Source: a virus
Strand: one strand, 5' to 3'
DNA: 21,222 nucleotides
IMG/VR virus record: IMGVR_UViG_3300025896_001614
Span: 1 to 21,222 of that record
Made by a program: the position numbers and the translations under genes. This document shows, piece after piece, positions 547-17,878 of this stretch (position 1 is its first letter; each line of letters begins with the position of its first letter). The notes beneath the pieces were generated by a model that did not search any database, was not told the DNA's origin, and was given only the letters and a program-made list of their open reading frames with translations.

Positions 547-574
547 CAACATTAAAAGGGGACTGGTCTTATGA
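515..574 (+). CDS. possible 19-residue peptide coupled to whiB
   Basis: GTG 515 has a good Shine-Dalgarno sequence, AAGGGAG at 501-507, with a 7-nt spacer. The peptide MANMKKTKTTDNIKRGLVL is basic, and its TGA (572-574) overlaps the whiB ATG (571-573) as ATGA, the coupling form used throughout this genome. It could be a leader whose translation controls whiB. Alternatively the AAGGGAG is chance and whiB uses only its own AAAAGGGGA just upstream. Confidence 0.35.
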   Translation: MANMKKTKTTDNIKRGLVL

Positions 575-831
575 CAGCATTAAAGTATTTAGCATGGTTT
601 GATGATGCAGTGTGCAAAGGCATGGATGGGAACATCTTTTTCCCTGACACACCTACAGGTATCTCGACCAAAGGTATCTTCACCGATGCACAAGCAGTGT
701 GTAAGGGTTGTTCGGTGAAGAAGCAATGTCTTGCGTTTGCTATGGAAGCAGAAGAGTTTGAGCAACGTAGGTACGGTGTGTGGGGTGGCAAAACCCCTGC
801 CGAGCGTTCGGTGTTGCGTTCGGGATATTGA
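571..831 (+). CDS. whiB: WhiB-family transcriptional regulator
   Basis: This 86-residue protein has the full WhiB signature: C15, C44, C47 and C53 (C-x28-C-x2-C-x5-C) to hold a [4Fe-4S] cluster, preceded by 'AWFDDAVC' and 'FFP', and followed by the turn GVWGG at 69-73 that contacts the principal sigma factor in studied family members. The short C-terminus (KTPAERSVLRSGY) carries few basic residues for DNA contact compared with chromosomal WhiB proteins. The ribosome site AAAAGGGGA lies just upstream of ATG 571. Known family role: sigma-bound, redox- or NO-sensitive control of transcription; phage copies such as mycobacteriophage TM4 WhiB can interfere with host WhiB2. Here it ends the rightward small-gene cluster. 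Which promoters it controls is unknown; the TTGACA promoters at 3797-3825 and 4236-4264 are candidates. Confidence 0.93.
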   Translation: MTALKYLAWFDDAVCKGMDGNIFFPDTPTGISTKGIFTDAQAVCKGCSVKKQCLAFAMEAEEFEQRRYGVWGGKTPAERSVLRSGY

Positions 832-3581: not shown

Positions 3582-3763
3582 TGTTGTTTCCCTTTCTTGT
3601 TTGGTGTGATGTCGTATGTTTCACACATGATGCTCTTTCCGTTTGCAAGTTGGACGAAAAACGATGTACCTAATTCGTCCACTGCTGTGTCGGTGATTGT
3701 CCCAGTCTGCGCACAGTATGCGTGGAACTGATTGGTGACTGTCACCTTTTGTCCTACTTCCAT
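3578..3763 (-). CDS. small beta-barrel-like protein
   Basis: 61 residues: 'MEVGQKVTVTNQFHAYCAQT', then 'GTITDTAVDELGTSFFVQLANGKSIMCETYDI' and a basic tail NKKGKQQ. Alternating strands with 'G.ITD....FFV.L.NG' resemble a small SH3- or KOW-like barrel, common in phage early operons. AAGGGAA lies before ATG 3763. It is the first gene of the unit driven by the promoter at 3797-3825, about 27 nt downstream of the expected transcription start. Confidence 0.68.
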   Translation of the reverse strand: MEVGQKVTVTNQFHAYCAQTGTITDTAVDELGTSFFVQLANGKSIMCETYDITPNKKGKQQ

Positions 3764-3796
3764 TGCTGGTTCCCTTCGTTGATGTTGATATGTCTA

Positions 3797-3825
3797 ACCG
3801 TAGTACGAATACTATGAGATGTCAA
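3797..3825 (-). promoter_or_regulatory. sigma70-type promoter, leftward
   Basis: On the minus strand a perfect -35 TTGACA (3820-3825) is followed after exactly 17 nt by TACGGT (3797-3802), a weak -10. Transcription would start near 3789 and lead into the gene at 3763. The 11 nt upstream of the -35 are the same as at the second promoter (4236-4264). Confidence 0.65.
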
Positions 3826-3836
3826 GGATTATCTTT
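3820..3836 (-). repeat. 17-nt promoter-linked repeat, copy 1
   Basis: AAAGATAATCCTTGACA on the minus strand, identical to copy 2 at 4259-4275. It covers the -35 hexamer and 11 nt upstream, so it may be a common binding site for a phage or host regulator as well as promoter sequence. Confidence 0.8.
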
Positions 3837-3843
3837 TCATCGT

Positions 3844-3883
3844 GGGTGTCGGGGACTTGAACCCCGATGTCTGCCAGTCACCC
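3844..3883 (-). other. tRNA T-arm/acceptor-like hairpin
   Basis: On the minus strand, CGGGG-TTCAAGT-CCCCG (3866-3850) is a textbook tRNA T-arm: 5-bp stem, 7-nt loop TTCAAGT that fits T-Psi-C-R-A-N-Y. It is enclosed by GGGTG (3883-3879) paired with CACCC (3848-3844), as an acceptor stem would enclose it, with 12 nt on the 5' side and one A on the 3' side. No D-arm or anticodon arm exists, so it is not a full tRNA. It lies 7 nt after the stop of the gene ending at 3891 and just upstream of a promoter. It may be a tRNA-derived attachment site, a processing site for RNase P/Z, or a stable terminator-like hairpin. Confidence 0.7.
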
Positions 3884-3890
3884 GACCTAC

Positions 3891-4196
3891 CTACTCTTCG
3901 TCTATATAGTCTTCTCGCTTTGTGCAAAAGTGCCAGTCCGACATGATTTCGTGGTCTGCCACCTCAAAGAACCCAGCGTTGTCTAAGAATGCAAGTGTGT
4001 CAAACTCGCTATCATTTGCTTCGGCTTGGTATTCTAAAGCCTTCTTCAATTGGTAGACGCAGGCGCACCAAGTTTTGCGGTGTATGCCTTCGTCCAACAT
4101 ATCGTATTCAGCCTTGACATACAAAGTGAATGCCTCGTAACTGAGGTATTCCGCTATGATGTCTGCTGATAACTTTTGAGTTGTTTTAGTTTTCAT
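3891..4196 (-). CDS. hypothetical protein, first gene after strong promoter
   Basis: 101 residues starting MKTKTTQKLSADIIAEYLSY. Mainly helical, with three cysteines ('TWCACVYQL' and 'HFC') and an acidic end. ATG 4196 follows AGGGGGTG with a 5-nt spacer, a strong ribosome site. It is alone between its own promoter (4236-4264) and the T-arm-like hairpin (3844-3883), so it may be expressed as a single-gene transcript. I do not recognise a family; a small regulator would fit the position, but no helix-turn-helix is clear. Confidence 0.75.
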   Translation of the reverse strand: MKTKTTQKLSADIIAEYLSYEAFTLYVKAEYDMLDEGIHRKTWCACVYQLKKALEYQAEANDSEFDTLAFLDNAGFFEVADHEIMSDWHFCTKREDYIDEE

Positions 4197-4235
4197 TGTT
4201 CACCCCCTCTCCCCTTCTCGTGTTGCTTGTAACTA

Positions 4236-4264
4236 AGTGTATCACAGATAAGAGTACTTGTCAA
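4236..4264 (-). promoter_or_regulatory. strong sigma70-type promoter, leftward
   Basis: Minus strand: TTGACA (4259-4264), 17-nt spacer, TACACT (4236-4241). Both boxes are close to consensus. Transcription would start near 4229 and run into the gene at 4196. A CRP/GlxR-type palindrome lies directly upstream. Confidence 0.8.
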
Positions 4265-4275
4265 GGATTATCTTT
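4259..4275 (-). repeat. 17-nt promoter-linked repeat, copy 2
   Basis: Same AAAGATAATCCTTGACA as at 3820-3836, again with TTGACA as the -35 box. The last base is shared with the palindrome at 4275-4290. Confidence 0.8.
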
Positions 4276-4290
4276 GTGAACTATGTCACA
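4275..4290. promoter_or_regulatory. CRP/GlxR-type operator
   Basis: TGTGAACTATGTCACA has perfect TGTGA and TCACA half-sites and the central TA of the TGTGAnnTAnnTCACA consensus reported for GlxR, the cAMP-binding CRP homologue of corynebacteria. Its centre is about 53 nt upstream of the predicted start of the promoter at 4236-4264, a position suited to activation, though not at the classic -61.5 or -41.5. Confidence 0.6.
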
Positions 4291-4332
4291 CCCTCAAACC
4301 CTTACCCCTCATCATAAACAAACATATGTTCG

Positions 4333-4348
4333 GTTACCTGCTGGTAAC
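4333..4348 (-). terminator. hairpin directly after a stop codon
   Basis: GTTACC-AGCA-GGTAAC on the minus strand, a perfect 6-bp stem with a 4-nt loop abutting the TAA at 4349-4351. The tail (CGAACATATGTTTGTTT) is only moderately U-rich, so it may be a weak terminator or an mRNA end protector. The rest of 4197-4348 holds the promoter, operator and no gene. Confidence 0.45.
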
Positions 4349-4558
4349 TTACCCAACGGTAACTTGTTCCCTCACTTTCATCCCGTCCGCCTGATGCCAC
4401 GCTTCGCCACTACCTGACACGGGCTTCACCTTGTAATCTAAATTACCGTAACGCTGGCGAGCGTCCACTATTTCTACCTCAAAACATAATGCCGACCCTG
4501 CTACTTGTAGTAGTGCAGTTTTGCCAATGTTCTGTGCCAACTCTTGTGCGGTAGCCAT
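4349..4558 (-). CDS. small beta-rich phage protein
   Basis: 69 residues: a short N-terminal helix 'TAQELAQNIG', then strands 'TALLQVAGSALCFEVEIVDAR', 'YGNLDYKVKPVSGSGEAWHQ' and a final 'VREQVTV'. The 'f.V.V.d.r..yG...y.V.PvsGsG..W' pattern is familiar from small actinophage proteins of unknown function. ATG 4558 overlaps the upstream stop as TAATG. Last gene of the first leftward block; a hairpin follows the stop. Confidence 0.72.
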   Translation of the reverse strand: MATAQELAQNIGKTALLQVAGSALCFEVEIVDARQRYGNLDYKVKPVSGSGEAWHQADGMKVREQVTVG

Positions 4559-4713
4559 TAGTCCTCGTCCTCGCTGTCTGCGTTATCGGCGTACAGTTCT
4601 TCGTAGCCCCGTTCGGTCAATGCCCTGCGAACCAAGTTGTAAATTGTGTCCTCGTCTCCATCTGTCCAGAAGAGCGCTGTTGCTTCGTGGAATAGTTGTT
4701 GGCTTAGTTTCAT
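4558..4713 (-). CDS. hypothetical 51-residue acidic protein
   Basis: I start at ATG 4713 because it overlaps the stop of an upstream microprotein as TAATG; longer in-frame starts would overlap that gene fully. Sequence MKLSQQLFHEATALFWTDGD continues with a helix 'TIYNLVRRALTERGYEEL' and an acidic end 'ADNADSEDED'. No known family. Confidence 0.65.
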   Translation of the reverse strand: MKLSQQLFHEATALFWTDGDEDTIYNLVRRALTERGYEELYADNADSEDED

Positions 4714-4838
4714 TAGTTGCCCCATTTCTGGCGCTCTGTAATAATCCCAAGATAAACCCCTGTCATAAAAATACCTGCAAGGCACATAAAGATGACTGCT
4801 TCGGGATAGTCTCGCATAATATAGATAATCTTCTCCAC
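4713..4838 (-). CDS. 41-residue single-span membrane protein
   Basis: GTG 4838 overlaps the upstream TAG as TAGTG, and the TAA at 4713 overlaps the next ATG. After MEKIIYIMRDYPE comes a hydrophobic span of about 19 residues 'AVIFMCLAGIFMTGVYLGI', then a short charged tail 'TERQKWGN'. The layout is a small bitopic membrane protein. AAGAAGGTGG upstream acts as ribosome site. It could be a membrane-targeted inhibitor such as a superinfection-exclusion peptide, but only position and topology support that. Confidence 0.65.
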   Translation of the reverse strand: MEKIIYIMRDYPEAVIFMCLAGIFMTGVYLGIITERQKWGN

Positions 4839-5047
4839 TATTTGCCCACCTTCTTGTATTTGCGTAGTTGGACGCGCACTTCGTCTAGTGCGAACATTGC
4901 CCCTAGTGCTTTATCGCGTTTGTATTCTCGGTCATATCCGCCCTCTGTTTCGGGACTGTCATATATTTTCCTATTTCGCTCTAGTTCTCTAGAGACTATG
5001 GTCTCCACGATGTCTAGGTCTATTCGCTGTATGTAATCTGCTCTCAT
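4838..5047 (-). CDS. hypothetical charged protein
   Basis: 69 residues from ATG 5047 (AGGGAAATA before it; overlaps the upstream stop as TAATG). MRADYIQRIDLDIVETIVSR begins one helix; 'YDREYKRDKALGAMFALDEVRVQLRKYKK' forms another, with a basic end. A longer frame reaching 5188 is an artefact of lacking stops and lies over two other small genes. Function unknown. Confidence 0.68.
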   Translation of the reverse strand: MRADYIQRIDLDIVETIVSRELERNRKIYDSPETEGGYDREYKRDKALGAMFALDEVRVQLRKYKKVGK

Positions 5048-5148
5048 TATTTCCCTACCTCTTCTAGTTCCGCTTTCAATTCTGCTATCTCTCTCTTGGC
5101 TTCCTGTAGTTGCTCCCACAGCCATTGCCATTCTGCTTTGGTTGTCAT
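5047..5148 (-). CDS. 33-residue coiled-coil microprotein
   Basis: MTTKAEWQWLWEQLQEAKRE continues 'IAELKAELEEVGK': a single amphipathic helix with heptad-like spacing of W/L/I and many E/K, likely a short coiled coil. TAATG overlaps on both sides and a ribosome site ACGGGGAAATA support it. It may oligomerise or bind a partner helix. Confidence 0.6.
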   Translation of the reverse strand: MTTKAEWQWLWEQLQEAKREIAELKAELEEVGK

Positions 5149-5282
5149 TATTTCCCCGTTTCCGTTTCTTCTTCTTGTGTTGTGGCAACTATCGCCCCGA
5201 CTATTTCTTCTTTTGTTGCGGTCATTGGTAGTGTTACCGTTGGACGGTCAAAACCTATGCCCATAATTACTATTTCACCCAT
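5148..5282 (-). CDS. hypothetical 44-residue protein
   Basis: ATG 5282 is preceded by AAAGGGAAAGAAAC, a strong ribosome site, and 36 nt separate it from the folded element at 5318-5363. MGEIVIMGIGFDRPTVTLPM then 'TATKEEIVGAIVATTQEEETETGK': strands followed by a helix and an acidic tail. No family known to me. Confidence 0.6.
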   Translation of the reverse strand: MGEIVIMGIGFDRPTVTLPMTATKEEIVGAIVATTQEEETETGK

Positions 5283-5317
5283 GTTTCTTTCCCTTTCGTT
5301 GTTTGTTTGTGTATCGT

Positions 5318-5363
5318 TCCCTAGTGAGTGCGTGACACTCTGCCGACTGTATCGGGCTAGGGA
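5318..5363 (-). ncRNA. three-way-junction RNA element, copy 1
   Basis: TCCCTAG (5318-5324) pairs with CTAGGGA (5357-5363), 7 bp. Inside are two hairpins, GAGTG/CACTC (5326-5330/5336-5340, 5-nt loop) and CCGA/TCGG (5343-5346/5352-5355, 5-nt loop). Almost every base is paired. It lies between a stop codon (5373-5375) and the next gene's ribosome site. A related element is at 5737-5778 in the same type of gap. Could be a processing site, attenuator or mRNA stabiliser. Confidence 0.55.
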
Positions 5364-5372
5364 TAACCTCGC

Positions 5373-5579
5373 TTAGTGGGTGAGAGTTCCGCACCCCTCA
5401 CAAGTCACCTTGTCACTTGAGTATCGTGGCGTCCATGACCAGCGCACCCCCGTTGCTTCGGCTTCTTCTAGTCTCGCGTCTACATTCGTGCCGTATTTCG
5501 GGTGAGTAGTCCAACGGTCATCACCGCAACTGTCACAGATTATTCCCTCGTGGTCAGTGTTTGCTTGATAGTAAGCCAT
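5373..5579 (-). CDS. zinc-ribbon-like small protein
   Basis: 68 residues from ATG 5579, with CGAGGGGGAA before it and a TAATG overlap with the upstream gene. 'IICDSCGDDRWTTHP' near the N-terminus and 'KVTCEGCGTLTH' at the C-terminus give two CxxC pairs about 45 residues apart, fit for one zinc ion. Between them lies a helix 'VDARLEEAEATGVRW' and a strand region. Looks like a nucleic-acid or protein-binding zinc ribbon; function unknown. Confidence 0.7.
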   Translation of the reverse strand: MAYYQANTDHEGIICDSCGDDRWTTHPKYGTNVDARLEEAEATGVRWSWTPRYSSDKVTCEGCGTLTH

Positions 5580-5689
5580 TATTCCCCCTCGCAATCGTGC
5601 CCGTAGTAGAACTCGCTGGCTTCTTCTTCGTCCATTAGGTCGAACACTCGCCCGCATTCTTCACACTTGGCTTTTGTTTGTATTTTCAT
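5579..5689 (-). CDS. 36-residue zinc-finger-like protein
   Basis: ATG 5689 follows GGGGAAAGC. MKIQTKAKCEECGRVFDLMD then 'EEEASEFYYGHDCEGE': a CEEC pair plus H-D-C near the C-terminus could ligate zinc. The longer frame to 5797 crosses the folded element at 5737-5778 and lacks a ribosome site, so it is rejected. Confidence 0.65.
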   Translation of the reverse strand: MKIQTKAKCEECGRVFDLMDEEEASEFYYGHDCEGE

Positions 5690-5736
5690 GCTTTCCCCGT
5701 TCTGTAGTTGTATGTTGTCTGTCTGCTTTCGCATTG

Positions 5737-5778
5737 TCCCTAGTCCCGATTGAACGGGCACGCCCAAGACGCTAGGGG
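5737..5778 (-). ncRNA. CCCTAG/CTAGGG hairpin element, copy 2
   Basis: TCCCTAG (5737-5743) pairs with CTAGGGG (5772-5778; one G-U), and inside CCCG/CGGG (5745-5748/5755-5758) forms a hairpin with loop ATTGAA. The closing stem matches that at 5318-5363, and both elements begin 6-9 nt after the previous stop codon on the minus strand and end 36-48 nt before the next start. Confidence 0.5.
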
Positions 5779-5784
5779 AATTGT

Positions 5785-5955
5785 CTAAAGTCCGCAAGCC
5801 TTCTCGAATATCTCACGCTTGAAGAGCACATTGTCTGCCTTTAGAGCCTTGCACAATGTCTCTACCAATTCGGCGAACTCGCCTTTAGCGGTGAGACTCT
5901 CATCTCTTGCTTGCTTGATTGCGCTTGCAATTAGTTGGTAATCCTTGCGAGTCAT
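5785..5955 (-). CDS. conserved small phage protein ('MTRKDY..IA.A' family)
   Basis: 56 residues: MTRKDYQLIASAIKQARDES, 'AKGEFAELVETLCKALKADNVLFKREIFEKACGL'. A start like 'M(T)RKDY..IA.A....' and an end like 'L..DN..F....F..ACG' mark a family found in many actinobacterial and proteobacterial phages, of unknown function. ATG 5955 follows AGGGGAAT. It is the first gene of the leftward unit; about 0.9 kb of non-coding sequence lies upstream. Confidence 0.78.
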   Translation of the reverse strand: MTRKDYQLIASAIKQARDESLTAKGEFAELVETLCKALKADNVLFKREIFEKACGL

Positions 5956-5999
5956 ATATTCCCCTATCCCTTGTAGTAAGGCTTATTCCCTACACCATT

Positions 6000-6029
6000 T
6001 ATTTAATCACATATGTAAGACAATTGCAA
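6000..6029 (-). promoter_or_regulatory. candidate promoter for leftward operon
   Basis: Minus strand TTGCAA (6024-6029) and TTAAAT (6001-6006) with 17-nt spacing, about 40 nt upstream of the ATG at 5955. Several other -10-like hexamers (TATGAT, TATATT) lie further upstream in this AT-rich stretch, so the exact promoter is uncertain. Confidence 0.35.
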
Positions 6030-6247
6030 CTACTAAACCAACTTTTCTCAATATACTTATCATATATCACCAAACAATATCCCCAACACAAACACAGATA
6101 ACAAGAGCCCAACACATCACCAAGTGAGATAGACACATAATGAGAACCATTCCCAGTAGGCGACCTCGCCCGATACAAACTGTTTGCAGTGTTCATGCGA
6201 TTTGTTTTGTTTGGGGTAGGTATGTTACTGGCAGGTAGGTTTGGTTT

Positions 6248-6342
6248 GTGGTGGAATAACTACTGTGAGTGATGTAGTTATCTAACTAATCGGTCAATTA
6301 GCCCGTACCGCGACTGGGCGTCTGCCCATGCTCCCCTACCAC
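6248..6342 (+). ncRNA. candidate four-way-junction structured RNA
   Basis: GTGGTGG (6248-6254) can pair with CTACCAC (6336-6342) and encloses three hairpins: ATAACTAC/GTAGTTAT (6256-6263/6274-6281, perfect 8 bp), CTAAT/ATTAG (6286-6290/6297-6301) and TGGGC/GCCCA (6315-6319/6324-6328). GCCC at 6301-6304 could instead pair with GGGC at 6316-6319, so the last hairpin has an alternative. The strand is not certain, since the stems exist on both. No coding potential. Confidence 0.4.
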
Positions 6343-6503
6343 TAGTAAAAGTATATCACCGCTCGATGTTTTCACTCTTTTGTTTGGTTGTCTGTAAACG
6401 GTTACGCCGTGATACGTTTCGAGTTTGACCCATGCACTTGGGAGGAGGGGGTTGGGCTGTCATACAGTTTAGGTTCCGCACACTTTTTTAGAGCATCGTT
6501 TAT

Positions 6504-6574
6504 GTTTCTCCGCAGAGGAACAAATGTTCGGACTGACCGACCCGTGTCAGTTGAGGGCAAGTCGCGTATGCGAC
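6504..6574 (+). other. cluster of three hairpins
   Basis: GTTTCTC-CGCA-GAGGAAC (6504-6521, one G-U), then either TCGG/CCGA (6528-6540) or CTGAC/GTCAG (6533-6550), then GTCGC-GTAT-GCGAC (6561-6574). Dense dyads in non-coding DNA ahead of the terminase region could be RNA structure or protein-binding sites for replication or packaging. Confidence 0.35.
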
Positions 6575-6707
6575 GCGGCAGATTAGTAAAACTAAAAAGT
6601 AACAAAAGACAAAACACAGTAATGCTCCCCCCCACAGTTCGCCCACCAAAGGACAGGTCGCCGTAGCCAAACTCTTTTAGCCGACACCAAAAATATAAAC
6701 ATATGAC

Positions 6708-6849
6708 GTTGTTTACGCTGCTCCCCCACATCAAGCATGGAGGTCGAACCACGTTCCCGTGGATAAGCCCCACACCACGCAAACGGTGCACAACCCTGAA
6801 AACTAAATCTGTTTGCTGTCTCCCGACAGGTGTAACAAGAGAGTACCAC
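6708..6849 (+). promoter_or_regulatory. late leader 1, related to leader at 20885-21026
   Basis: This 142-nt stretch begins with GTTGTTTACG after an AT-rich block and ends at ATG 6850. Shared with leader 2 in the same order: GTTGT (6708), AGG..AACC (6741-6750), a stem with 12-nt loop rich in CCCC (CGTGG/CCACG, 6758-6762/6775-6779), GGTG..AACC (6785-6795), GACAGGTGT (6825-6833) and GAGAGTACCACATGTC (6839-6854). Extra hairpins are CCACG/CGTGG (6749-6762, exclusive with the previous) and CTGTC-TCCC-GACAG (6816-6829). It probably holds a late promoter and a structured 5' UTR. Confidence 0.6.
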
Positions 6850-6984
6850 ATGTCTGCTATTCTTGCAACATGGCAACAAAAAAAGACCCGAAACAAAAAG
6901 AAAACCAAGCACGTAAACCTGTTGCCACAAAAGCAATGGCTGACACATCTGGTGGGTCACTTGCAGATTTTAAAAACAAAGTAG
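6850..6984 (+). CDS. alternative start frame of first late gene (possible -1 frameshift)
   Basis: ATG 6850 has GAGAG at 6839-6843 and sits in the same 16-nt context as the scaffold start at 21027, so ribosomes may well begin here. The frame gives 44 basic residues, MSAILATWQQKKTRNKKKTK then a stop at 6984, unlike its neighbours in codon use after about residue 12. At 6879-6885 it reads A_AAA_AAG; a -1 slip there enters the frame of the large gene beginning at 6870. The other choices are a non-functional leader peptide, or one missing base in the seven-A run. Confidence 0.35.
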   Translation: MSAILATWQQKKTRNKKKTKHVNLLPQKQWLTHLVGHLQILKTK

Positions 6985-7969: not shown

Positions 7970-9955
7970 ATGGGAACCAAACGTAAAGTCAACCCCGAAG
8001 ACAAACAACGATTCTTCGCAGCCATAGCAGCAGGCTCATCAATAACCGAAGCCTCACGCATCTCAGGTGTACACATCAACACAGGCTCACGCTGGTTAGC
8101 CCAATCCAAAGCAGCCAAAGCCAAACTAGACGCAGCAGTCCTAGCCGTCACCAAAACCAAATCACGTGAAGGCGGCGCACAATACCGAGCATACGAACAG
8201 GACCTCGACGAATCCAACAACCTGCTACCCGCCATCCCCCACAACCGTTTATGCGACGAAGCACTACGAGGATTACACGACTTTGATTTCTTCAGAAAAC
8301 ATTATCTAGGTAGAGTCCCGTCACCATGGCAAGTAGAAGCAGCCGTCACCCTAGTAGAGATGTTGGAAAACCCTGAAAAAGAATTTGTTGTACTAAATGT
8401 TCCCCCAGGTGCAGGCAAATCAACCCTCTTCCACGACGTAGCCGTATGGTCTATCGTCCGCAACCGTGCCATCCGTGTAATGATTGGTTCCATCTCCCAA
8501 GCAATGGCAAAACAATACTCCCGACGTATCCGTGAAACTTTGGAACGTCAACAACCAATCCACCCAGACCCAGAAATTGTGAAGAAAGGACTGGCTGTCG
8601 ACGCTCAAGGATGCCTGTCCGTGGACTACGGTCGTTTCAAACCATCCGACAAAGGTGCACTATGGCGGGCAGAAGAGTTCGTTGTAGAACAATTAGACGG
8701 TAACGGGTTAGATAACAAAGAACCAACCGTACGTGCATACGGAATTGACTCAGAATACATTGGACACCGCGCAGACCTCTGCCTATTTGACGACGTAGCC
8801 TCAGTCGACAATGCCCGTGAAGGAAATACCCGCGACAAACTGTTGGAACGCTGGGACCAAGTAGCCGAAGCCCGTGTAGACCCAGCAGGCTTACTCGCTG
8901 TTGTAGGTCAGCGGTTGGGTTCAGGCGATTTGTATGCTCATTGCCTCAACAAAATCTCGTATGACATCGACGAAGAAGATTACGACGGGTCAGACATGAC
9001 CACACCAGAGTCATTTGCTGCCACAGAACCAGTCAAATCCTCTAAATACAAACACATTGTGTACAAATCTTATTACCCTGAACTAGATGACGGTCCAAAA
9101 TCACGCAAATATAATGCCAAACCGTACCCTGAAGGACCACTACTAGACCCGCAACGTCTCGGTTGGAAAGATTTATCATATATCAGGTACTCAAACCCGC
9201 GCACATTCAAAGTTGTTTATCAACAAGAAGACGACGCAGACGACACCAACCTAATTTCACGGGTGTGGATAACAGGTGGGCTAGGAGCCGACGGTGTTCT
9301 TTACCCTGGCTGTATTGATAACGACCGTTTACCAGGTCAAGTCCCTGAAGGACTCACCCCGCCAGTTATTTCACTGATTTCTGTTGACCCATCCCCATCA
9401 CAGTTCTGGGGTATCCAATGGTGGTTATATCAACCTGCAACAAACCTAAGATATTTGATAGATGTCGAACGAATCAAACTCACCGCTGAAGAACTTTTAG
9501 GTTATGACACCTCTACTGGGGAATACTCTGGTCTGTTAGAGGATTGGACTAATCGTGCGTTCAGTTACGGCTACCCTGTATCACACATCGTGGTTGAGGT
9601 CAACGCCGCCCAACGATTCCTACTAGCCCACGATTTTGTACGCAAATGGCAATCACGACAAATGGTAAACATCATCCCCCACACAACACACCGAAACAAA
9701 TTCGACGAAAAACTTGGAATCGAAGCACTACTCCCACCCCTCTACCGTTCAGGAGCAGTACGACTACCAACCATGCGCGGCAACTGGAAAACACTTGCAC
9801 TCGTAGACGAACTCACCAAATGGTCACCCGACAAAAAAAATGGTACCGACCTTGTAATGGCAAACTGGTTTGCAGAACTACACTTCCCAACAGTCGGCGG
9901 CATAAAACTACCGCCACGACAATGGCGACCCTCATGGATGCTAAGCGGCAATTAA
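7970..9955 (+). CDS. terL: terminase large subunit with N-terminal helix-turn-helix
   Basis: 661 residues; pumps phage DNA into the procapsid with ATP and cuts the concatemer. Residues about 12-48 form a helix-turn-helix ('FFAAIAAGSSITEASRISGV' and 'RWLAQSKAAK') like a small-terminase DNA-binding domain. The ATPase part has Walker A VPPGAGKST (144-152, K150) and Walker B LCLFDDV (270-276, D274/D275). The RNase H-fold nuclease has acidic residues D473 (SVDPSP), E543 (VVEVN) and D627 (GTDLV). Length is somewhat above the usual 450-600. Start ATG 7970 follows the previous stop by 12 nt without a clear ribosome site. No separate terS is seen just upstream, so the fused domain may recognise the packaging site. 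Confidence 0.93.
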   Translation: MGTKRKVNPEDKQRFFAAIAAGSSITEASRISGVHINTGSRWLAQSKAAKAKLDAAVLAVTKTKSREGGAQYRAYEQDLDESNNLLPAIPHNRLCDEALRGLHDFDFFRKHYLGRVPSPWQVEAAVTLVEMLENPEKEFVVLNVPPGAGKSTLFHDVAVWSIVRNRAIRVMIGSISQAMAKQYSRRIRETLERQQPIHPDPEIVKKGLAVDAQGCLSVDYGRFKPSDKGALWRAEEFVVEQLDGNGLDNKEPTVRAYGIDSEYIGHRADLCLFDDVASVDNAREGNTRDKLLERWDQVAEARVDPAGLLAVVGQRLGSGDLYAHCLNKISYDIDEEDYDGSDMTTPESFAATEPVKSSKYKHIVYKSYYPELDDGPKSRKYNAKPYPEGPLLDPQRLGWKDLSYIRYSNPRTFKVVYQQEDDADDTNLISRVWITGGLGADGVLYPGCIDNDRLPGQVPEGLTPPVISLISVDPSPSQFWGIQWWLYQPATNLRYLIDVERIKLTAEELLGYDTSTGEYSGLLEDWTNRAFSYGYPVSHIVVEVNAAQRFLLAHDFVRKWQSRQMVNIIPHTTHRNKFDEKLGIEALLPPLYRSGAVRLPTMRGNWKTLALVDELTKWSPDKKNGTDLVMANWFAELHFPTVGGIKLPPRQWRPSWMLSGN

Positions 9956-10002
9956 GTATAGTATTATCGCTATAGCCATCTACTGTAGGAGAACTACAAA
10001 CA

Positions 10003-11823
10003 GTGCAATCAGTTGAACAAATCGTAGCCCTCTACAACGCCCGCCGCGAAGCACAAGGACCCATCCTGCGCCGCATGCGCGAAGTACGAGACCTCGCCAA
10101 TGGCGACATCGTAATACCATTATCAGAACTTGACCGCAACGCACGAACCAACGTAGCAAACCTACTCGTACAAGGCTTAGACCAAACCTCTATGCGTATC
10201 GCATCAACAATGCCGATGCCATTCTTTCCACCAATCAAACAAAACAACGCAGACTCACAAGAACAAGCACGCCTTCGCAAAAAAGTTATTTTGTCATACT
10301 GGGACAAAAACAAAATGGGACTCAAAATGCGTCGCCGTGCAAGACACTTCCTTGCATACTCATCCAGCCCAGTCTATCTACGCCCAGATTTTAAAACATT
10401 GACACCAACCTGGTCCATCCGTAATCCGCTAGACACTTACGCTGCACCAAACGAAGACCCAGACAACCTAGTACCAGATGACACAATTTTTACGTACACC
10501 AAAACCGCTCAATGGCTTATCGACCATTACGGTCCAAAAGTTGTTGGCAAACTCCGCATGGGGCGTGTGACACCAGACTCACGTTTTACCATCCTAGAAT
10601 TTTGTGACGATACAGAAATTGTTTTGTGTGTTATGGGTGCGCCAATCGCAGAAGGAATGACACCACCAGAACGAGCAGGACTAGAAACCATCGAACTGGA
10701 ACGCATGCCAAACCGTACAGGTATGCCACTATCCGTTATCCCAAGTCGTATCTCATTAGATACCCCAAAGGGTCAATATGACGGTGTGCTCGGAATGTAT
10801 TTTACACGCGCACGTTTACAAGCACTCACAGAAATCGCTATCGAACGCGGCATCTTCCCAGACGAATACTTGGTAGCACGCGCAGGTGAAAACCCTGAAA
10901 TCATCCAGATGGCTGACGGAAAAACAGGGCAGTTAGGTGTTGTTAAGGGCGGCGACATTCAACAGTTGCAAACAAACCCAGGATACAAAACCGATACAGC
11001 CTTAGACCGTCTCGAACGCCAAGAACGACTTGAGGGTGCTATCCCTGCAGAGTTCGGTGGCGAATCAGGAACCAACATCCGTACAGGTCGCCGCGGCGAA
11101 AACGTACTGTCATCAACAATTGACTTCCGCGTACAAGAAGCCCAAGCAGTATTTGAACAAGCACTCTACGAAGAAGACAAAATTGCTATTGCTATCGAAC
11201 TTGCTTATTGGGGCAATCAAAAGAAATCATTTTTCTTGCAGGGACGTTCTTCTGGTGGCATGACCAACTATGTACCAAGCAAAGTATTTGAAACCGACTT
11301 CCATTATGTTTCATACCCATCATCGGGTTCAGACGTTAACGGTCTTATCGTAGGTTTAGGTCAAAGACTGGGTACAGGTCTGATGTCAAAAGAATCTGCC
11401 CGTGAAGCCGACCCGTTGATTACCGACCCTGAACTAGAAAAAGACCGCATCACATCAGAGTCCGTAGAAGCCGCATTGCTGTCAAGTATCCAAGCACAAG
11501 CCGCTGACCCTAACGGACCATACCAACCAGATGACCTTGCATACCTAACAATGCTTACAGTTGAAAAGAACATGAGTTTGTATCAGGCTGTACAAAAAAC
11601 TCAGCAACGCGCACAAGAACGTCAAGCAGCGATGGCACCTGCGGGCGCACCTGCAACTATGCCAGGATTGGCTACACCAGGTATGGGTCAAGAACAACCA
11701 GCCGCACCCCAAGGTGCAGGCGGTGTGGAAGGATTGTTAGCCAAACTTGGTAGACCACCAGCAGGCGCAGCAGCACAACCAGGAACACCAGGAGCAGTAC
11801 TCAGTTTAGGAGGGAGACTATAA
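10003..11823 (+). CDS. portal protein
   Basis: 606 residues; forms the ring at one head vertex through which DNA passes. The position right after TerL, the size and the sequence fit actinophage portals: N-terminal helix 'QIVALYNARREAQGPILRR', a strand-helix wing with 'NLLVQGLDQTSMRIASTMPM', 'RHFLAYSSSPVYLRPDF', then the stem region 'RLERQERLEGAIPAEFGGES' and 'NIRTGRRGENVLSSTIDF' before the long clip/crown helices. Residues from about 540 are Pro/Ala/Gly/Gln-rich and probably disordered. GTG 10003 follows AGGAGA (9987-9992) with a 10-nt spacer. The 47-nt gap before it has TATAG/CTATA (a small dyad) and no gene. Confidence 0.88.
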   Translation: MQSVEQIVALYNARREAQGPILRRMREVRDLANGDIVIPLSELDRNARTNVANLLVQGLDQTSMRIASTMPMPFFPPIKQNNADSQEQARLRKKVILSYWDKNKMGLKMRRRARHFLAYSSSPVYLRPDFKTLTPTWSIRNPLDTYAAPNEDPDNLVPDDTIFTYTKTAQWLIDHYGPKVVGKLRMGRVTPDSRFTILEFCDDTEIVLCVMGAPIAEGMTPPERAGLETIELERMPNRTGMPLSVIPSRISLDTPKGQYDGVLGMYFTRARLQALTEIAIERGIFPDEYLVARAGENPEIIQMADGKTGQLGVVKGGDIQQLQTNPGYKTDTALDRLERQERLEGAIPAEFGGESGTNIRTGRRGENVLSSTIDFRVQEAQAVFEQALYEEDKIAIAIELAYWGNQKKSFFLQGRSSGGMTNYVPSKVFETDFHYVSYPSSGSDVNGLIVGLGQRLGTGLMSKESAREADPLITDPELEKDRITSESVEAALLSSIQAQAADPNGPYQPDDLAYLTMLTVEKNMSLYQAVQKTQQRAQERQAAMAPAGAPATMPGLATPGMGQEQPAAPQGAGGVEGLLAKLGRPPAGAAAQPGTPGAVLSLGGRL

Positions 11824-12198
11824 ATGGCAGCATACGGACAACGCACCGATTTGAACATGGCACCAACAGCAGCACCAGGACAAACATACGGTAAAGCAGG
11901 AGCACAAATCGCTGCACAACGCGCAGTACCAATGGGCGCACCCGCAACACCAGCCGCACCTACAGCACCAACATCAACTCCAGGACAATACGGTCCATTA
12001 GACCGACCAACAGAACGCCCCAACGAACCCGTCACTGCTGGAGCACCATTTGGACCTGGACGCATGTCCACTGAAAACGCATACATCGGTCGACGCAACG
12101 GCGACCCAATCCTTGACGAATTACGCGCACTATACGCAAGTTACCCCAGTGATGAACTAGCAAATATGTTGGACTCATATATCCGCGAAGGATACTAA
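11824..12198 (+). CDS. Pro/Ala-rich virion-associated protein
   Basis: 124 residues; ATG follows the portal stop directly and has GGAGGGAG upstream. The first 85 residues are low-complexity Ala/Pro/Gly/Thr ('APATPAAPTAPTSTPGQYGP'), and the last 35 are helical ('PILDELRALYASYPSDELAN', 'MLDSYIREGY'). The composition continues that of the portal's C-terminus. The helical end may dock on the portal or head. Ends in a TAATG overlap with the next gene. Confidence 0.7.
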   Translation: MAAYGQRTDLNMAPTAAPGQTYGKAGAQIAAQRAVPMGAPATPAAPTAPTSTPGQYGPLDRPTERPNEPVTAGAPFGPGRMSTENAYIGRRNGDPILDELRALYASYPSDELANMLDSYIREGY

Positions 12199-15100
12199 TG
12201 GTCGGATTACTTAATCCTTTTGAATCTGTTGACAACACAAAAAATAATCAAGATGCACAAGCGTCAATCACAGCACAAAACAAACTTGCTTTAACATCAA
12301 CACCACAACAGGCTGCAAACGTAGCAAAAATTTATAGTCAAGCACCGTGGATACCACCACGCGTAATTTTAGATTTGGCTAAACAACAAAACATTTCTCA
12401 ACAAGCAGTAGATGTTATTGCAGGTATATCAGGGAAACAGATACCAGCAAACTATCCTGTGAACCCTCCTGAAAAGAAAAGTTGGTTTGAACGCAACGTT
12501 TACGGTAAAGCAAAAACTGCTTCACGATGGGCGTTTGCCGCATTGCAATTTACGCCAGACCTTGCACAAAACATTGCCTCGCAAGCATTTTCTAACAACG
12601 ACCCTGCTGGTGTTGATGGTTGGTTTGCTTCTACACAGTTGGGAACATTGGCTTCTGGTGCCGATGCAGGTTCAGGATTGTTCTTTGGTGGAGAAGCAGA
12701 AAAAACTCAAGCACAAAAAGCCAAAGAGTTCCGTGGAACCATCAATGGTCATGCTTGGACTGTTGGGCGTGGTGCAGCAGACATTATTTTTACACCAGGC
12801 TCAAAAGAGTATTCAATTCTTTCAGGATTTATTGATGGTGCCGTAAACATTTATGCAGACCCAACAATGTATTTAGGGCAGGCTTTTAAGGCAGCCAAAT
12901 CTGGTGAAGAAGTTAAGGGTCTTATTGGTACCAAGAAAATTTCTCAATTGTTGGCAGATAAAATGGTTGAACGCGGTTTAGTAACTGATGTTATTCCAAA
13001 GATAAGCAAAGAAGCAGCAGCAGCAGCAGCAAAAATTGCTAGAGGTGAAGCAGGGTTACATAGTGCTGAAAGCGTTTCGTTTCTTGAATCACCATTCTTC
13101 TCATGGTTTGACCGTAATAGCAGTGCACAAAGAATGGCTGAACGTGTTGCAGGTCACGCAGCCCGCGCAAGCGAATACATTGCCGCACATATATCTTTGA
13201 CACCAGAAGAACAACTTGTTGAACGTGGTAAAGCAGCAGCCAAAATTATGGCTGATTTTCCCGAAGGTTCAATCGACCCAGAAACAGCAATGCTATTTGC
13301 ATCAGCAGATGATTCTTTAAAAGTTAAAGCAACATTGGGTGGTGCCGCATCATTGGCTACTAGCCCAGAAAATATGTTGTTGCCAAAACAAATTGGTGAA
13401 ATTCGTGGTGTGGGTCTTACATCAGGTATCCGCGAATATGCCCGTGAGCGTATCCCTTTGTATAGAACATTAAGAAACAGTAGTTGGTTTACAGAAATAC
13501 CAACCGATGCCGTACTGCTTCACGCAACTGGTGCCGACCGTTCCAAATCTGTTGCATCACTCAGCAAATTTTTGCAAGGAATGAAACTTCACACCGCATC
13601 ACCAAAAGTTTATGAAGATTTTATGGGCAAAGCCGTTTCATCGCTGGCTATCAAAAGCCCATCACAACGCAAAGTAGCGTTCGATAATCTATACAACGAA
13701 TTCCTTGGTGTAATTACAGAAAACATTGGAGGCTCAAAAAAAGTTACAAACGAAGCCTACAAACTTGCCCAAAAAGAACTAATCAAAATGCGTTCTTTTG
13801 CTGTTGATGCAGCAGGAAATTTGAATGATGGCGGTGCATTTAAAATGATGCGTGAATATCTACCTGAAGACCAAATCAACCGTCTGCTAGAAAAATTTAC
13901 CCCAGAACAGTTAGATAATTTGCAGTTTCAAGATGCAACAGCACTTACTCAACTAATTGACAGTATGCACGTTATGCCAGATTTTAGAAAGTTTCGTGCA
14001 TTATCAACAAATGCTTTTATGAAAGGCGCATTACGCAACAAGAGTGGTGAAGCCAGACAAGTATTGGCGGCAGCAGAACAACTACAACAAGAAGTATGGA
14101 AACCAGTAGTACTTGCTACAGGCGGATTTATTGTTCGAAACATGATTGACTCACACATCCGCATTGCCGCATCAGGATACCAAGGGTTCTTTTCGCATCC
14201 TTTTCAATTTATGCAAATTGCAATGGGTAAACGGTTCATTGGCGCACTTACCGATGGTGCTGGAAGAGAAGTAAAAACTTTTGAAGATGCAGGACCAGAA
14301 TTGGCAAAAGCATGGAGCACCGATATTTTGTCAGAACATGCTTCAGCCACTGCATCAAATGTTTATAAAAATCTTCAAGACCCACAAGCCGCAAATGAAG
14401 GGTTATTTAGAACAGAACATTTTGGATTAGTTGACCGTGGTCAAGATGCAACGGCACATACCATTGGTTACATCGACAATATGGGTCAAATAGCATCAGA
14501 CCCAATTTTGAGTCGCATTGCTGCCGTATGGCATCTTCCACCAGCAGAACGAAATGCTGCCATTAAACAATGGTTGGATAGTCCTGAAGGTGCTAAAGCA
14601 AAACGCGGAATTCTAGACAACGATATTCGTCGTGTTGCTGACCCACAAACAAGTCGCCATGAATTTGTTGATTTGTCAACACTTACTGAAGACCAACGTA
14701 TTGACACATGGTTAGAAACTGCTACACACGAAGTATCAAACATTTTGCGGGCAGAAAAGCAGGTCGGACCAATTGACCAAGACCTTGCATTTATTGTTGC
14801 CCATGACCGTGTACCAAAAATAGAAAACGTTATTGGACCAAACAATAAACCAACAGATGAGGTTCGTATTGCCCCCAGACAAGAAGCCCGCGCAGATACA
14901 TTGCAAGTTATTGGACGAGACACCACTCCGCGTATTGGTTCCACTGTTTCTTTGGGTGAAAAAGAAGAAGGCATAGTAACAAAACTTACCGACCAAATAA
15001 CCCCAGACCCATTTAATCCTGGGCGAACAATCACACAACAAATAGCAGAAATCCAACCAGTCGCAAGCGGCAAAGCATTTACCAGAGCCGAAAAAGACCC

Positions 15101-17024
15101 TGCGCTCCTCGGTACAGCAGCACTACGTGAACATCTTGACTACAAAGGTAACCAAGGTTTGTTGTCTCAAAAAGTACGTCGAGCGAACCGTGTAGAACTA
15201 AACAAAACTGCTGGTTTAGACAAAGTTCATGGAATGATGGACTCTGCTGTTAAATGGTTTTTTGGGGGTTTGGTTGGAACAGCACAACACAAATTGGAAC
15301 GGTCACCATTATGGAGACAAGCCTTCTATAAAGAAGTAGCAGGTAATGCAAATCTTCTTTCTGAGGCAGAACAAACATTGTTGCGTTCAAACATTGAAAG
15401 ATATGTAACACAACTTAATACCGACCTTATCGAAGCAGGTCAAAAAGGTAACATAACCGCACAAAAATATGTTGGTAATGAAACCATATATAACAAAATT
15501 TTTGGAACAGTAGCAACGGGCGATGCAACCGTAGCCGAACTCGAACAATACGCAGGGGCATTTGCCACACACGAAACCCAACGTATCCTTTACGATGCCC
15601 ACAAAAAAGGCAACCTTGAAGACATGCTGCGAGTTATCGCACCGTTTGCTTCAGCGTTCCGAGAAACACTTGGCAAATACACCAAATATCTTGTGGAAGA
15701 CCCATCAAGAATACGTAAATCACAACTTGCATATAATGCTGTCAACTACAACTCATCAGACCCAGACAATGTTGGTGCAGGATGGTTTACAAAAGACCCA
15801 ACATCTAACACCAATGTGTTCAACATCCCTGTTGGCGGATGGATAGGACCACTATTACAGTTCCCTATACGTGGTGCTTTCCAAGTATTAAACCTTCCAG
15901 GTGTTGGTCCAGTAGCACAAATTGCTGCAACAGAACTACTCCCAGACACCCCAAAACTAGACTTTGTACGCAATCTTGTACTACCTTACGGTCCCAAAGG
16001 TATCTCATCTCTTGCGCCACAATGGGCTGCCCGTGGAATCGAAGCACTCAAAGCAGACACAACAAACATGGGTTCCATTTATGGCAACACATACGCCGAC
16101 ACTGTTCAATATCTTGCACAGTCAGGTTCATATAACACAAACGATGTGAACGATGTAACAAAACTTTATCGTGATGCAAAAAACAAGGCACGAATCATGG
16201 CTGGTATGCGAGCCTTGTTTCAGTTCACAGGACCAGTTTCACCAAAGATTGATTTCAGATTATCTACCGCTAAGGGCGACATTGTTGCTGGAGCATTATC
16301 GCAAGAGTTCTATAAACTTCAAACAAAGAATCGTGACACTGCCGTACAAGAGTTCATTGATACTTTTGGCGAAGATGCTTTCGTGTACTTGGGTCATAAG
16401 ACAGAACCAACCACATCAGGTATTGAACCAACCAAAGTGTTTTCAGATTGGGAACGCTCACATGGTGGTCTGTTTGAACAGTACAAAGGTGTGGCAGGTT
16501 ACCTTGCCCCAGGTGGAGATGGTTTCAGTTTCCAAGCATGGAACCGTCAAATCAACAAAGGTGAACGTCGCCGTTTATCTGCAGACGAAATTCTTGCTGG
16601 AGCAGAATACAAAATTGGTGCATCGATTTACCGTTCGAAACGGAACCAAATGGGAGACACTCTTACCGAAGAACAACGCGGCTGGCTATCACAATGGCGT
16701 GTTTATCTCAACAAACAGTATCCAGGTTTCCCTGTTAAAGCCCAATTCAACCCTGGAGAACTAGACAAATTCATTGGTGACTTGCGTTCAATCACTTTAG
16801 ATAAGCGTGTACAGAACAATGATACGGCTAAAGCCATCAGTACTTACCTTGATGCCCGCGACACAGCCAAGCAAAAGTTGGCTGAGGCAGGTCTAAGTTC
16901 GTTTGATTCTCCACGCGCACAACCTTTGAAGGACTGGTTGAGTAGTATTGCAGCAACACTTGTACAGCAAACCCCAGAATTCTCTAGGGTTTTTGAAGAT
17001 AAACTTGCAGCAGAGGTAGATTGA
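12198..17024 (+). CDS. giant virion protein (1608 residues)
   Basis: One uninterrupted frame, ATG at 12198 overlapping the previous stop. Regions seen: N-terminal charged/helical part to about 150; an Ala run near 271-278 (GCA codon repeat, about 13013-13031); membrane-like segment around 636-680 ('LATGGFIVRNMIDSHIRIAA'); a beta-rich insert near 910-960; 'HKLERSPLWRQAFYKEV' near 1027; 'MLRVIAPFASAFRETLGKYT' near 1143; a hydrophobic stretch near 1211-1245 ('GGWIGPLLQFPIRGAFQVLN'). The last few motifs recur in very large proteins of other actinophages lying between portal and capsid genes. No catalytic motif is clear. Likely an internal or ejected head protein or a connector component; a tail tape measure is less likely because it precedes the scaffold gene. 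Confidence 0.78.
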   Translation: MVGLLNPFESVDNTKNNQDAQASITAQNKLALTSTPQQAANVAKIYSQAPWIPPRVILDLAKQQNISQQAVDVIAGISGKQIPANYPVNPPEKKSWFERNVYGKAKTASRWAFAALQFTPDLAQNIASQAFSNNDPAGVDGWFASTQLGTLASGADAGSGLFFGGEAEKTQAQKAKEFRGTINGHAWTVGRGAADIIFTPGSKEYSILSGFIDGAVNIYADPTMYLGQAFKAAKSGEEVKGLIGTKKISQLLADKMVERGLVTDVIPKISKEAAAAAAKIARGEAGLHSAESVSFLESPFFSWFDRNSSAQRMAERVAGHAARASEYIAAHISLTPEEQLVERGKAAAKIMADFPEGSIDPETAMLFASADDSLKVKATLGGAASLATSPENMLLPKQIGEIRGVGLTSGIREYARERIPLYRTLRNSSWFTEIPTDAVLLHATGADRSKSVASLSKFLQGMKLHTASPKVYEDFMGKAVSSLAIKSPSQRKVAFDNLYNEFLGVITENIGGSKKVTNEAYKLAQKELIKMRSFAVDAAGNLNDGGAFKMMREYLPEDQINRLLEKFTPEQLDNLQFQDATALTQLIDSMHVMPDFRKFRALSTNAFMKGALRNKSGEARQVLAAAEQLQQEVWKPVVLATGGFIVRNMIDSHIRIAASGYQGFFSHPFQFMQIAMGKRFIGALTDGAGREVKTFEDAGPELAKAWSTDILSEHASATASNVYKNLQDPQAANEGLFRTEHFGLVDRGQDATAHTIGYIDNMGQIASDPILSRIAAVWHLPPAERNAAIKQWLDSPEGAKAKRGILDNDIRRVADPQTSRHEFVDLSTLTEDQRIDTWLETATHEVSNILRAEKQVGPIDQDLAFIVAHDRVPKIENVIGPNNKPTDEVRIAPRQEARADTLQVIGRDTTPRIGSTVSLGEKEEGIVTKLTDQITPDPFNPGRTITQQIAEIQPVASGKAFTRAEKDPALLGTAALREHLDYKGNQGLLSQKVRRANRVELNKTAGLDKVHGMMDSAVKWFFGGLVGTAQHKLERSPLWRQAFYKEVAGNANLLSEAEQTLLRSNIERYVTQLNTDLIEAGQKGNITAQKYVGNETIYNKIFGTVATGDATVAELEQYAGAFATHETQRILYDAHKKGNLEDMLRVIAPFASAFRETLGKYTKYLVEDPSRIRKSQLAYNAVNYNSSDPDNVGAGWFTKDPTSNTNVFNIPVGGWIGPLLQFPIRGAFQVLNLPGVGPVAQIAATELLPDTPKLDFVRNLVLPYGPKGISSLAPQWAARGIEALKADTTNMGSIYGNTYADTVQYLAQSGSYNTNDVNDVTKLYRDAKNKARIMAGMRALFQFTGPVSPKIDFRLSTAKGDIVAGALSQEFYKLQTKNRDTAVQEFIDTFGEDAFVYLGHKTEPTTSGIEPTKVFSDWERSHGGLFEQYKGVAGYLAPGGDGFSFQAWNRQINKGERRRLSADEILAGAEYKIGASIYRSKRNQMGDTLTEEQRGWLSQWRVYLNKQYPGFPVKAQFNPGELDKFIGDLRSITLDKRVQNNDTAKAISTYLDARDTAKQKLAEAGLSSFDSPRAQPLKDWLSSIAATLVQQTPEFSRVFEDKLAAEVD

Positions 17025-17878
17025 TGTCAAATACTCCAGTAGCACCAAACCCAAACGCAACGACCAACACGGCTGCACCAACAGACGTTGCACCAGCCGC
17101 AATCAGTACTTCAACCAAAGGTTTGGCTGCTGACGTTAAACTCCCAGAACGTCAAGTTAAAACATCAGGCATGCTTCCAGGATTTGACCCTGCTGCGGCT
17201 TCACAGGCTGGTTTGATTACAGGAACGACTGCTCTTGCTCCAAGCGTTTCAACATCTGCACGTGTGCGCGAAACTGCTGGTCCAGCATCTTTCGGATATG
17301 TCGGACAAAACCTTGTTAATAGTCAAGGTGTTATGGCTCGCCCACAATATGATGCCAGCGGTGAAGCATACAGCGAACTTGCAAGAATCCGCGATGTAGG
17401 TAATCGTATCGCGTTTCTTTCAACGTTAGCCTCACGTGGTTTATACGGCAAATCTGGGAAGCCATCGACAACGGGTTTTGAATCTGCCGACATTTCAGCA
17501 ATGACAGACTTTCTTCGCTTTGCCAACTCTCAAGGCGTTACAACGGATGTTGCTTATGGTCAGTTTCTTGCACAAATCAAACCAGTGCAGGGTCTTGGAA
17601 AAACCGTTCGACCTGATGCTAAACAAGATTTAGATTCTGCAGTTGATTCAGTGTTTAGACAGTTCATGGCAAGGGATGCAACCCCAGAAGAGAAGGCTGC
17701 TTTCCGTCAGATGGCTTTCAAACAAAAATCAACTGAAGCCTATGGTGGTGCTAAAGCACCGAACATTGGTGTTGCTGCTGAAGCATATGCTTCTAATAAG
17801 TTTGGTCCTGAAGCGCAGGCTACTAGTGCTGCTTCGTTGTTTGACATTTTGGATAAGAAAGTTAAAGGACTTGCATAA
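17024..17878 (+). CDS. virion-associated protein, helical C-terminus
   Basis: 284 residues from ATG 17024, overlapping the previous TGA by 1 nt, with AGAGGTAG upstream; an in-frame TTG at 17021 is possible but less likely. The N-terminal 90 residues are Thr/Ala/Pro-rich. The C-terminal half is helical, with 'DLDSAVDSVFRQFMARDATP' and 'EEKAAFRQMAFKQK', a pattern (helix, 'RdAtpeE..af...') shared with a class of actinophage structural proteins. Part of the block 12198-20867, all joined by 1-nt overlaps, so the four products are probably made in set ratios. Confidence 0.72.
   Translation: MSNTPVAPNPNATTNTAAPTDVAPAAISTSTKGLAADVKLPERQVKTSGMLPGFDPAAASQAGLITGTTALAPSVSTSARVRETAGPASFGYVGQNLVNSQGVMARPQYDASGEAYSELARIRDVGNRIAFLSTLASRGLYGKSGKPSTTGFESADISAMTDFLRFANSQGVTTDVAYGQFLAQIKPVQGLGKTVRPDAKQDLDSAVDSVFRQFMARDATPEEKAAFRQMAFKQKSTEAYGGAKAPNIGVAAEAYASNKFGPEAQATSAASLFDILDKKVKGLA

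Follow-up and report, generated by a model that had tools for sequence, protein, structure and literature searches.

The DNA analysed here, referred to as the window, is a 21,222-base IMG/VR virus record (IMGVR_UViG_3300025896_001614, positions 1-21,222) in which two structured elements separate small genes. The original prediction placed a pair of elements closed by CCCTAG and CTAGGG at 5318-5363 and 5737-5778. They are there, the CCCTAG...CTAGGG pattern has no third copy in the record, and comparative evidence settles that they are real. The genes around both elements are encoded on the minus strand, which is therefore the one read as RNA here and on which the folds lie. We assign the two elements to different classes, A and B, and add to the earlier account a third element of another class, C, as well as a likeness to tRNA, a downstream hairpin (P4) and a tail shared by all classes. 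The small genes were called mechanically, and the features are:

3840-3883, minus strand: class C element, matching covariance model R3 at 76.3 bits, 7 nt past the stop of the gene at 3891-4196
5148-5282, minus strand: small gene of 44 aa, after the class B element
5314-5317, minus strand: class B tail, ACGA, following the closing stem P1
5318-5363, minus strand: class B element, a three-way junction with covariation, matching model R2 at 5319-5362 with 44.8 bits
5373-5579, minus strand: small CxxC-type gene of 68 aa, its stop 9 nt before the class B element
5579-5689, minus strand: small gene of 36 aa that follows the class A element and has a GGGG-type ribosome-binding site
5724-5737, minus strand: the tail of the class A element (ACAA), then hairpin P4 (UGC-GAAA-GCA), which in relatives has another, 7-bp form that covaries
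5738-5777, minus strand: class A element, a three-way junction with covariation, matching model R1 at 62.6 bits
5785-5955, minus strand: small gene of 56 aa, its stop 7 nt before the class A element

The element at 5318 had been singled out as a compact three-way junction. That description stands, but not the contrast it implied, since both elements are three-way junctions of closely similar plan. In the class A RNA, CCCUAG and CUAGGG enclose the hairpins CGUC-UUG-GGCG and CCCG-UUCAAU-CGGG, with UG between them and A before the 3' strand; the third helix is thus capped by a T-loop-like UUCAAU. In the class B RNA, UCCCUAG and CUAGGGA enclose, in order, C, the hairpin CCGA-UACAG-UCGG, CA, the hairpin GAGUG-UCACG-CACUC, and A. 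The next start lies 48 nt from the class A element (ATG 5689) and about 35 nt from the class B element (ATG 5282). Single-sequence folding of the minus strand, with z = -3.6 for the element at 5318 and -1.2 for that at 5737, is only suggestive, and CCCTAG is barely enriched within the window. Elsewhere in the window, a long stretch without a convincing gene (about 6000-6850) separates divergent gene blocks and is possibly a control or replication sequence.

Relatives provided stronger tests. A terminase search (PHROG 38) gave 68 viral loci; a plain CCCTAG...CTAGGG search of these and further loci found dozens of copies of altered sequence, relaxed searches of relatives found compensated stems, and pattern scans of the viral collection returned 82 and 44 stretches. 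Covariance models were built from relatives for each class, the window's class C copy being among the sequences used for R3. The proposed covariance search of both elements showed homologous structures clearly present in viral contigs, with 158 R1 matches in 93 viral loci and 65 R2 matches in 66; R3 gave 28. These counts take in related contigs and so are not independent events, and the model E-values are rough. Among 21 terminase-family loci picked for holding sequence upstream of the terminase, all except L038 carry at least one element, and a single record may hold up to seven of class A.

Covariation is strong in both junction classes. Standard pairs make up 98.1% of pair cells in the 91 distinct class A rows (73% when shuffled) and 98.9% in the 49 distinct class B rows (79% when shuffled); 276 and 110 cells, respectively, changed on both sides, with covariation scores of 0.607 versus 0.157 and 0.524 versus 0.141. 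Shifting the partner by one column abolishes the signal. The alignments were fitted to the models and are therefore biased towards structure; model-free scans give the same compensated stems. Wobble pairs fix the strand of class A as the coding strand, because on the given strand 67 cells are G-U and one is A-C. The corresponding numbers for class B (9 versus 5) make its strand less clear.

The closing stem had been presented as shared by the two elements, and here relatives tell a different story: P1 is replaced by CCCCAG, CCCGTG, CCTTGC, CCCCCG or GCCTAG. We rejected a sequence-specific CCCTAG/CTAGGG signal on these grounds, for P1 covaries to other sequences; since it varies so widely, CTAG is not the signal and it is the fold that counts. 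The near-constant parts of classes A and B are unpaired: YR in J23, UCR in the loop of P3 and, in most cases, an A just ahead of the 3' strand of P1. Nearly all class A and B loops contain UCR; the T-loop UUCRA is seen in the majority of class A copies and in class C copies of the typical kind. No family of Rfam 15 reached its curated gathering score for the elements, and nothing matching was found in the literature on conserved structured RNAs in phage intergenic regions. Covariation and homologues in related phages strongly support the view that these are functional, inserted structures. Judged from the alignments, they almost certainly form a real and large conserved RNA family, apparently undescribed and widespread in environmental actinophages.

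The class C element gives this family its clearest link to tRNA. Its RNA in the window (3883-3844) reads GGGUG, ACUGGCAGACA, UCGGGG, UUCAAGU, CCCCGA and CACCC, then the tail ACGA; in parts, a GGGUG acceptor strand, the connector UGGCAGAC, the T-arm UCGGGG-UUCAAGU-CCCCGA, and CACCC. In the fold, the acceptor stem sits on a T-arm with a true T-loop, accompanied by the D-loop-like TGGCAGAC, and the connector contains the D-loop-like UGGCAGAC. The T-stem covaries and P1 is invariant in the aligned copies. The element is 44 nt long, occurs once per phage and is conserved in many relatives, mostly 6-11 nt past stops, a slot shared with classes A and B, as are its tails (ACGA, ACAA, ACUA). Many copies are followed by the same kind of hairpin; others, including that of the window, have a promoter-like TTGACA sequence instead. 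Divergent copies (in L139, L147, L166, L085 and L074) have AG for GG in the connector along with UGC for UUC in the T-loop. These positions touch in the elbow of tRNA, and the correlated change of the D-loop and T-loop may be a single event.

An independent scan for minihelices made of an acceptor stem and a T-arm recovered classes A and C together, mostly 6-9 nt past a stop. The nearest Rfam matches to class C are mascRNA/menRNA (RF01684, E 0.11) and the T-arm of tmRNA (RF00023, E 0.095), far below the gathering score, and ARAGORN called no tRNA in the window. We conclude from conserved sequence and fold that class C is very probably tRNA-like in the true sense. A simple attachment site made of a tRNA 3' half is an unlikely reading, because the 5' acceptor strand and the D-loop-like part are conserved too, and because 396 genomes of the phylum lack the pattern.

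The elements are strikingly regular in their placement. Counting distinct upstream flanks and same-strand ORFs of 40 codons or more, 162 of 167 elements follow the end of an ORF within 44 nt, and none lies nearer than 6 nt; 70% are found 6-11 nt past the stop codon, as against 3.9% of random positions. Their neighbours are unrelated (73 downstream protein clusters and 33 upstream), and identical elements occur beside different neighbours, which makes the element generic rather than gene-specific. The tail after P1 is of the RCNA type in 146 of 172 cases, with C as the second base in 167 and NCCA in none. In all classes it resembles RCCA with the second C replaced.

What follows the tail is more diverse. 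P4 usually begins about 4 nt past P1, with the ribosome-binding site of the next gene after it; the 14 variants of the 7-bp form of P4 are 100% paired and covary strongly (0.68 versus 0.19). No P4 was found after the class B element of the window, where relatives have UGC-AAAA-GCA. In some lineages (L103, L114, L115, L129 and L142, also L098, L099, L130 and L101), the Shine-Dalgarno core downstream of the element lies in a further hairpin with compensated stems, of the forms AUACCU-GAGG-AGGUAU, GACCU-GAGG-AGGUC and UGCCU-GAGG-AGGCA, which are reminiscent of SAS in cluster K phages. In another lineage (L064, L080, L102, L108 and L143), a promoter-like sequence of the type TTGACA-17-TACGAT stands between P4 and the next start, which is 84-85 nt away while the stop spacing is still 7 nt. 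The element is thus tied more to the preceding stop than to the next start.

The attribution to actinophages is strongly supported, because 35 of the 40 carrier records tested encode WhiB, a marker of Actinobacteria and their phages; 38 of the 40 have a class A match. The terminase of the window is recognisable in 25 of the 40 and missing from, among others, carriers of 97, 75, 64 and 59 kb. The carriers are actinophages of several lineages. When protein families were compared across eight carriers, the window and one cultured phage without significant matches, only WhiB spanned most lineages. We therefore rejected a shared trans-acting phage gene, and recognition by host machinery seems more likely than recognition by a phage factor. 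A host-encoded element or prophage was also rejected: in a thin sample of 396 actinobacterial genomes and under strict filters, there were no matches to R1, R2 or the class C pattern, and eight GTDB pattern matches were not model matches, though absence is not proven. Cultured phages, themselves thinly sampled, gave class B matches only in two ct2KA10 records; TM4 (30000-52797) had no R1 or R2 match, and FlowerPower and half of Rasputia had no significant one.

As for the window itself, its WhiB-like gene (571-831, plus strand) clusters with the WhiB genes of other carriers, and positions 4500-6500 show no DNA similarity to known phages. The structural block (7970-20867, plus strand) encodes a terminase, a portal and a 1608-aa protein in a gene order resembling that of FlowerPower, a Streptomyces phage of the Beephvirinae; the two terminases are about 25% identical. 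The terminases of two other carrier contigs (G018, 27349-29316; G012, 20407-22374) have one in-frame stop each, TGA and TAG, which may reflect sequencing error, a broken gene or recoding.

The earlier proposal that the elements serve mRNA processing or stability remains, on the comparative evidence, the best class of explanation. Three fold classes occupying one kind of slot with one tail are most simply accounted for by one function, which classes A, B and C probably share. Within this class, we tentatively favour cis-acting tRNA-like elements that would punctuate the polycistronic mRNA of actinophages and be cut by the RNase P or RNase Z of the host. Classes A and B would be further simplified forms doing the job of class C, with P1 as the acceptor, P3 as the T-arm and P2 replacing the D and anticodon arms. 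The cut would then fall on the 5' side of P1 if made by host RNase P, one base into the tail if made by RNase Z, and at both places if both enzymes act. Each gene block would end up on its own mRNA with protected ends, and expression of a gene would no longer depend on the one before it. By avoiding CCA, the element could escape becoming a charged tRNA or inhibiting RNase Z.

Several observations speak for punctuation by tRNA-like elements: the covariation in all three classes, the coding-strand wobbles of class A, the strict placement after stops, and three folds sharing a kind of slot, an RCNA tail that is never CCA and, mostly, the following hairpin. The UUCRA and UCR loops, the correlated change in divergent class C copies, the joint recovery of classes A and C by the minihelix scan, and an element generic to genes and lineages, which points to host machinery, weigh on the same side. 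Other observations speak against it. Classes A and B are only loosely tRNA-like: P3 and P1 are usually one base apart, class A has P2 stacked directly on P1, and the loops of classes A2 and B are not full T-loops. RCCA, which bacterial RNase P often favours, is absent, and the matches of class C to tRNA-like families are below threshold, with no tRNA called. Cutting by RNase P or RNase Z, argued by analogy, is a conjecture we hold with some doubt. More doubtful again is the full picture of an undescribed punctuation system in several unrelated lineages, in which either a tRNA reduced to its acceptor, T-arm and D-loop (class C) or a three-way-junction mimic of it (classes A and B) would follow stops so that host tRNA enzymes cut operons, the altered 3' end barring maturation into charged tRNA.

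Two alternatives are serious rivals. The elements could be compact decay barriers that involve no tRNA enzymes and block 3'->5' or 5'->3' exonucleases, either in the manner of REP sequences or as 5' stabilisers exposed once another RNase cuts the short spacer. A position right after stops and a stable compact fold, with a second hairpin in most copies, are what such a barrier would show, yet it would have no need of the conserved J23, the UCR loop, the RCNA tail or a tRNA-like class C. A pseudoknot of L3 with the flank, as in exonuclease-resistant viral RNAs, was rejected, because loop-flank complementarity is no better within elements than between them; this result concerns that lock alone and leaves room for other ring folds. 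We consider a plain barrier unlikely. Less probable still is a role in translation, of the kind suggested for SAS and ESAS of cluster K: bound to a factor or to the ribosome, the element would govern termination, uncoupling or the initiation of the gene that follows. Such a signal would fit the next start, most commonly 47 nt past P1, the stop spacing of 6-11 nt, near the front edge of a terminating ribosome, and the Shine-Dalgarno hairpins of some lineages. Yet the promoter-like sequence of the L064 lineage, inserted between element and start with the stop spacing kept, makes the link to the start loose, and no common RNA-binding protein was seen in the carriers compared.

Terminators, promoters and DNA recombination sites are disfavoured. 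The original prediction had suggested partial terminators, and one might think more broadly of an RNA that acts on RNA polymerase as a terminator, attenuator or put-like antiterminator, given that the folds lie within operons and that some copies precede promoter-like sequences; this is improbable, because the folds are not followed by a T-tract, the coding strand at the two elements of the window has neither a terminator-like nor a promoter-like site, and copies recur between many genes instead of standing at the heads of operons. The idea that the inverted repeats are recombination sites shuffling small genes in the manner of integron attC, attractive in that they separate unrelated genes and that identical copies have different neighbours, is the least credible of all, since the class A wobbles on the coding strand, the orientation and the spacing from stops point to RNA, and any shuffling could simply come with having repeated sequence.

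The elements are relevant to the question of how a single phage transcript can give each of many tiny genes its own expression level, and our models let annotators find gene borders directly in these phages. If the tRNA-like reading is true, they would be a virus counterpart of mitochondrial tRNA punctuation.

Comparison with known systems helps to delimit them. Intrinsic terminators combine a G+C-rich stem with a T-tract; no such coding-strand site occurs in 3700-6400, and P1 is followed by ACAA or ACGA. Nor is there the loop-to-flank pseudoknot lock of xrRNAs, tested as loop-flank complementarity. The mascRNA/menRNA family and the tRNA-like domain of tmRNA are, like class C, reduced tRNA-like RNAs with a T-arm, and mascRNA is released by RNase P and RNase Z; we claim no homology to either. 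With canonical tRNA, class C shares the acceptor stem on a T-arm and the T-loop UUCRANN, which classes A and B have in part. It lacks the cloverleaf with its anticodon arm, an 11-nt connector replacing the D and anticodon arms, and no element encodes the NCCA end, as is also the case of many real tRNA genes.

By position, the closest phage features are found in cluster K mycobacteriophages (PMC3203893), namely SAS, a fixed 13-bp sequence at the ribosome-binding site, and ESAS, an imperfect inverted repeat of 17 bp, together with similar repeats in Microbacterium phages (PMC7302621). Like the present elements, these actinophage features come in multiple copies, each in a short gap between non-structural genes and ahead of the start of one of many unrelated genes. 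They are described as sequence repeats, whereas the present elements are covarying three-way junctions that contain neither the 13-bp nor the 17-bp repeat. ESAS in Adephagia holds a SigA-like promoter (PMC11373665), and none was found at 5318-5363 or 5737-5778.

The reading based on host tRNA enzymes draws on two precedents. Host RNase P acts on operon mRNAs of E. coli and on the phage C4 and M3 RNAs (reviewed in PMC11143913); those are individual cases, whereas here a conserved multi-copy family would be cut. The t-elements of plant mitochondria are tRNA-like sequences at mRNA borders; RNase P and RNase Z cut there and in this way set the ends of the mRNAs (PMC11658184). These t-elements resemble the phage elements in placing a tRNA-like sequence at an mRNA border (class C, with A and B in the same slot) and in encoding no CCA. 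They differ in being recognisable tRNA homologues of organelle genomes, while the phage elements span 40-46 nt, have no anticodon arm and fall into three classes, two of them three-way junctions. If we are right about the cutting, the phage elements would work like t-elements.
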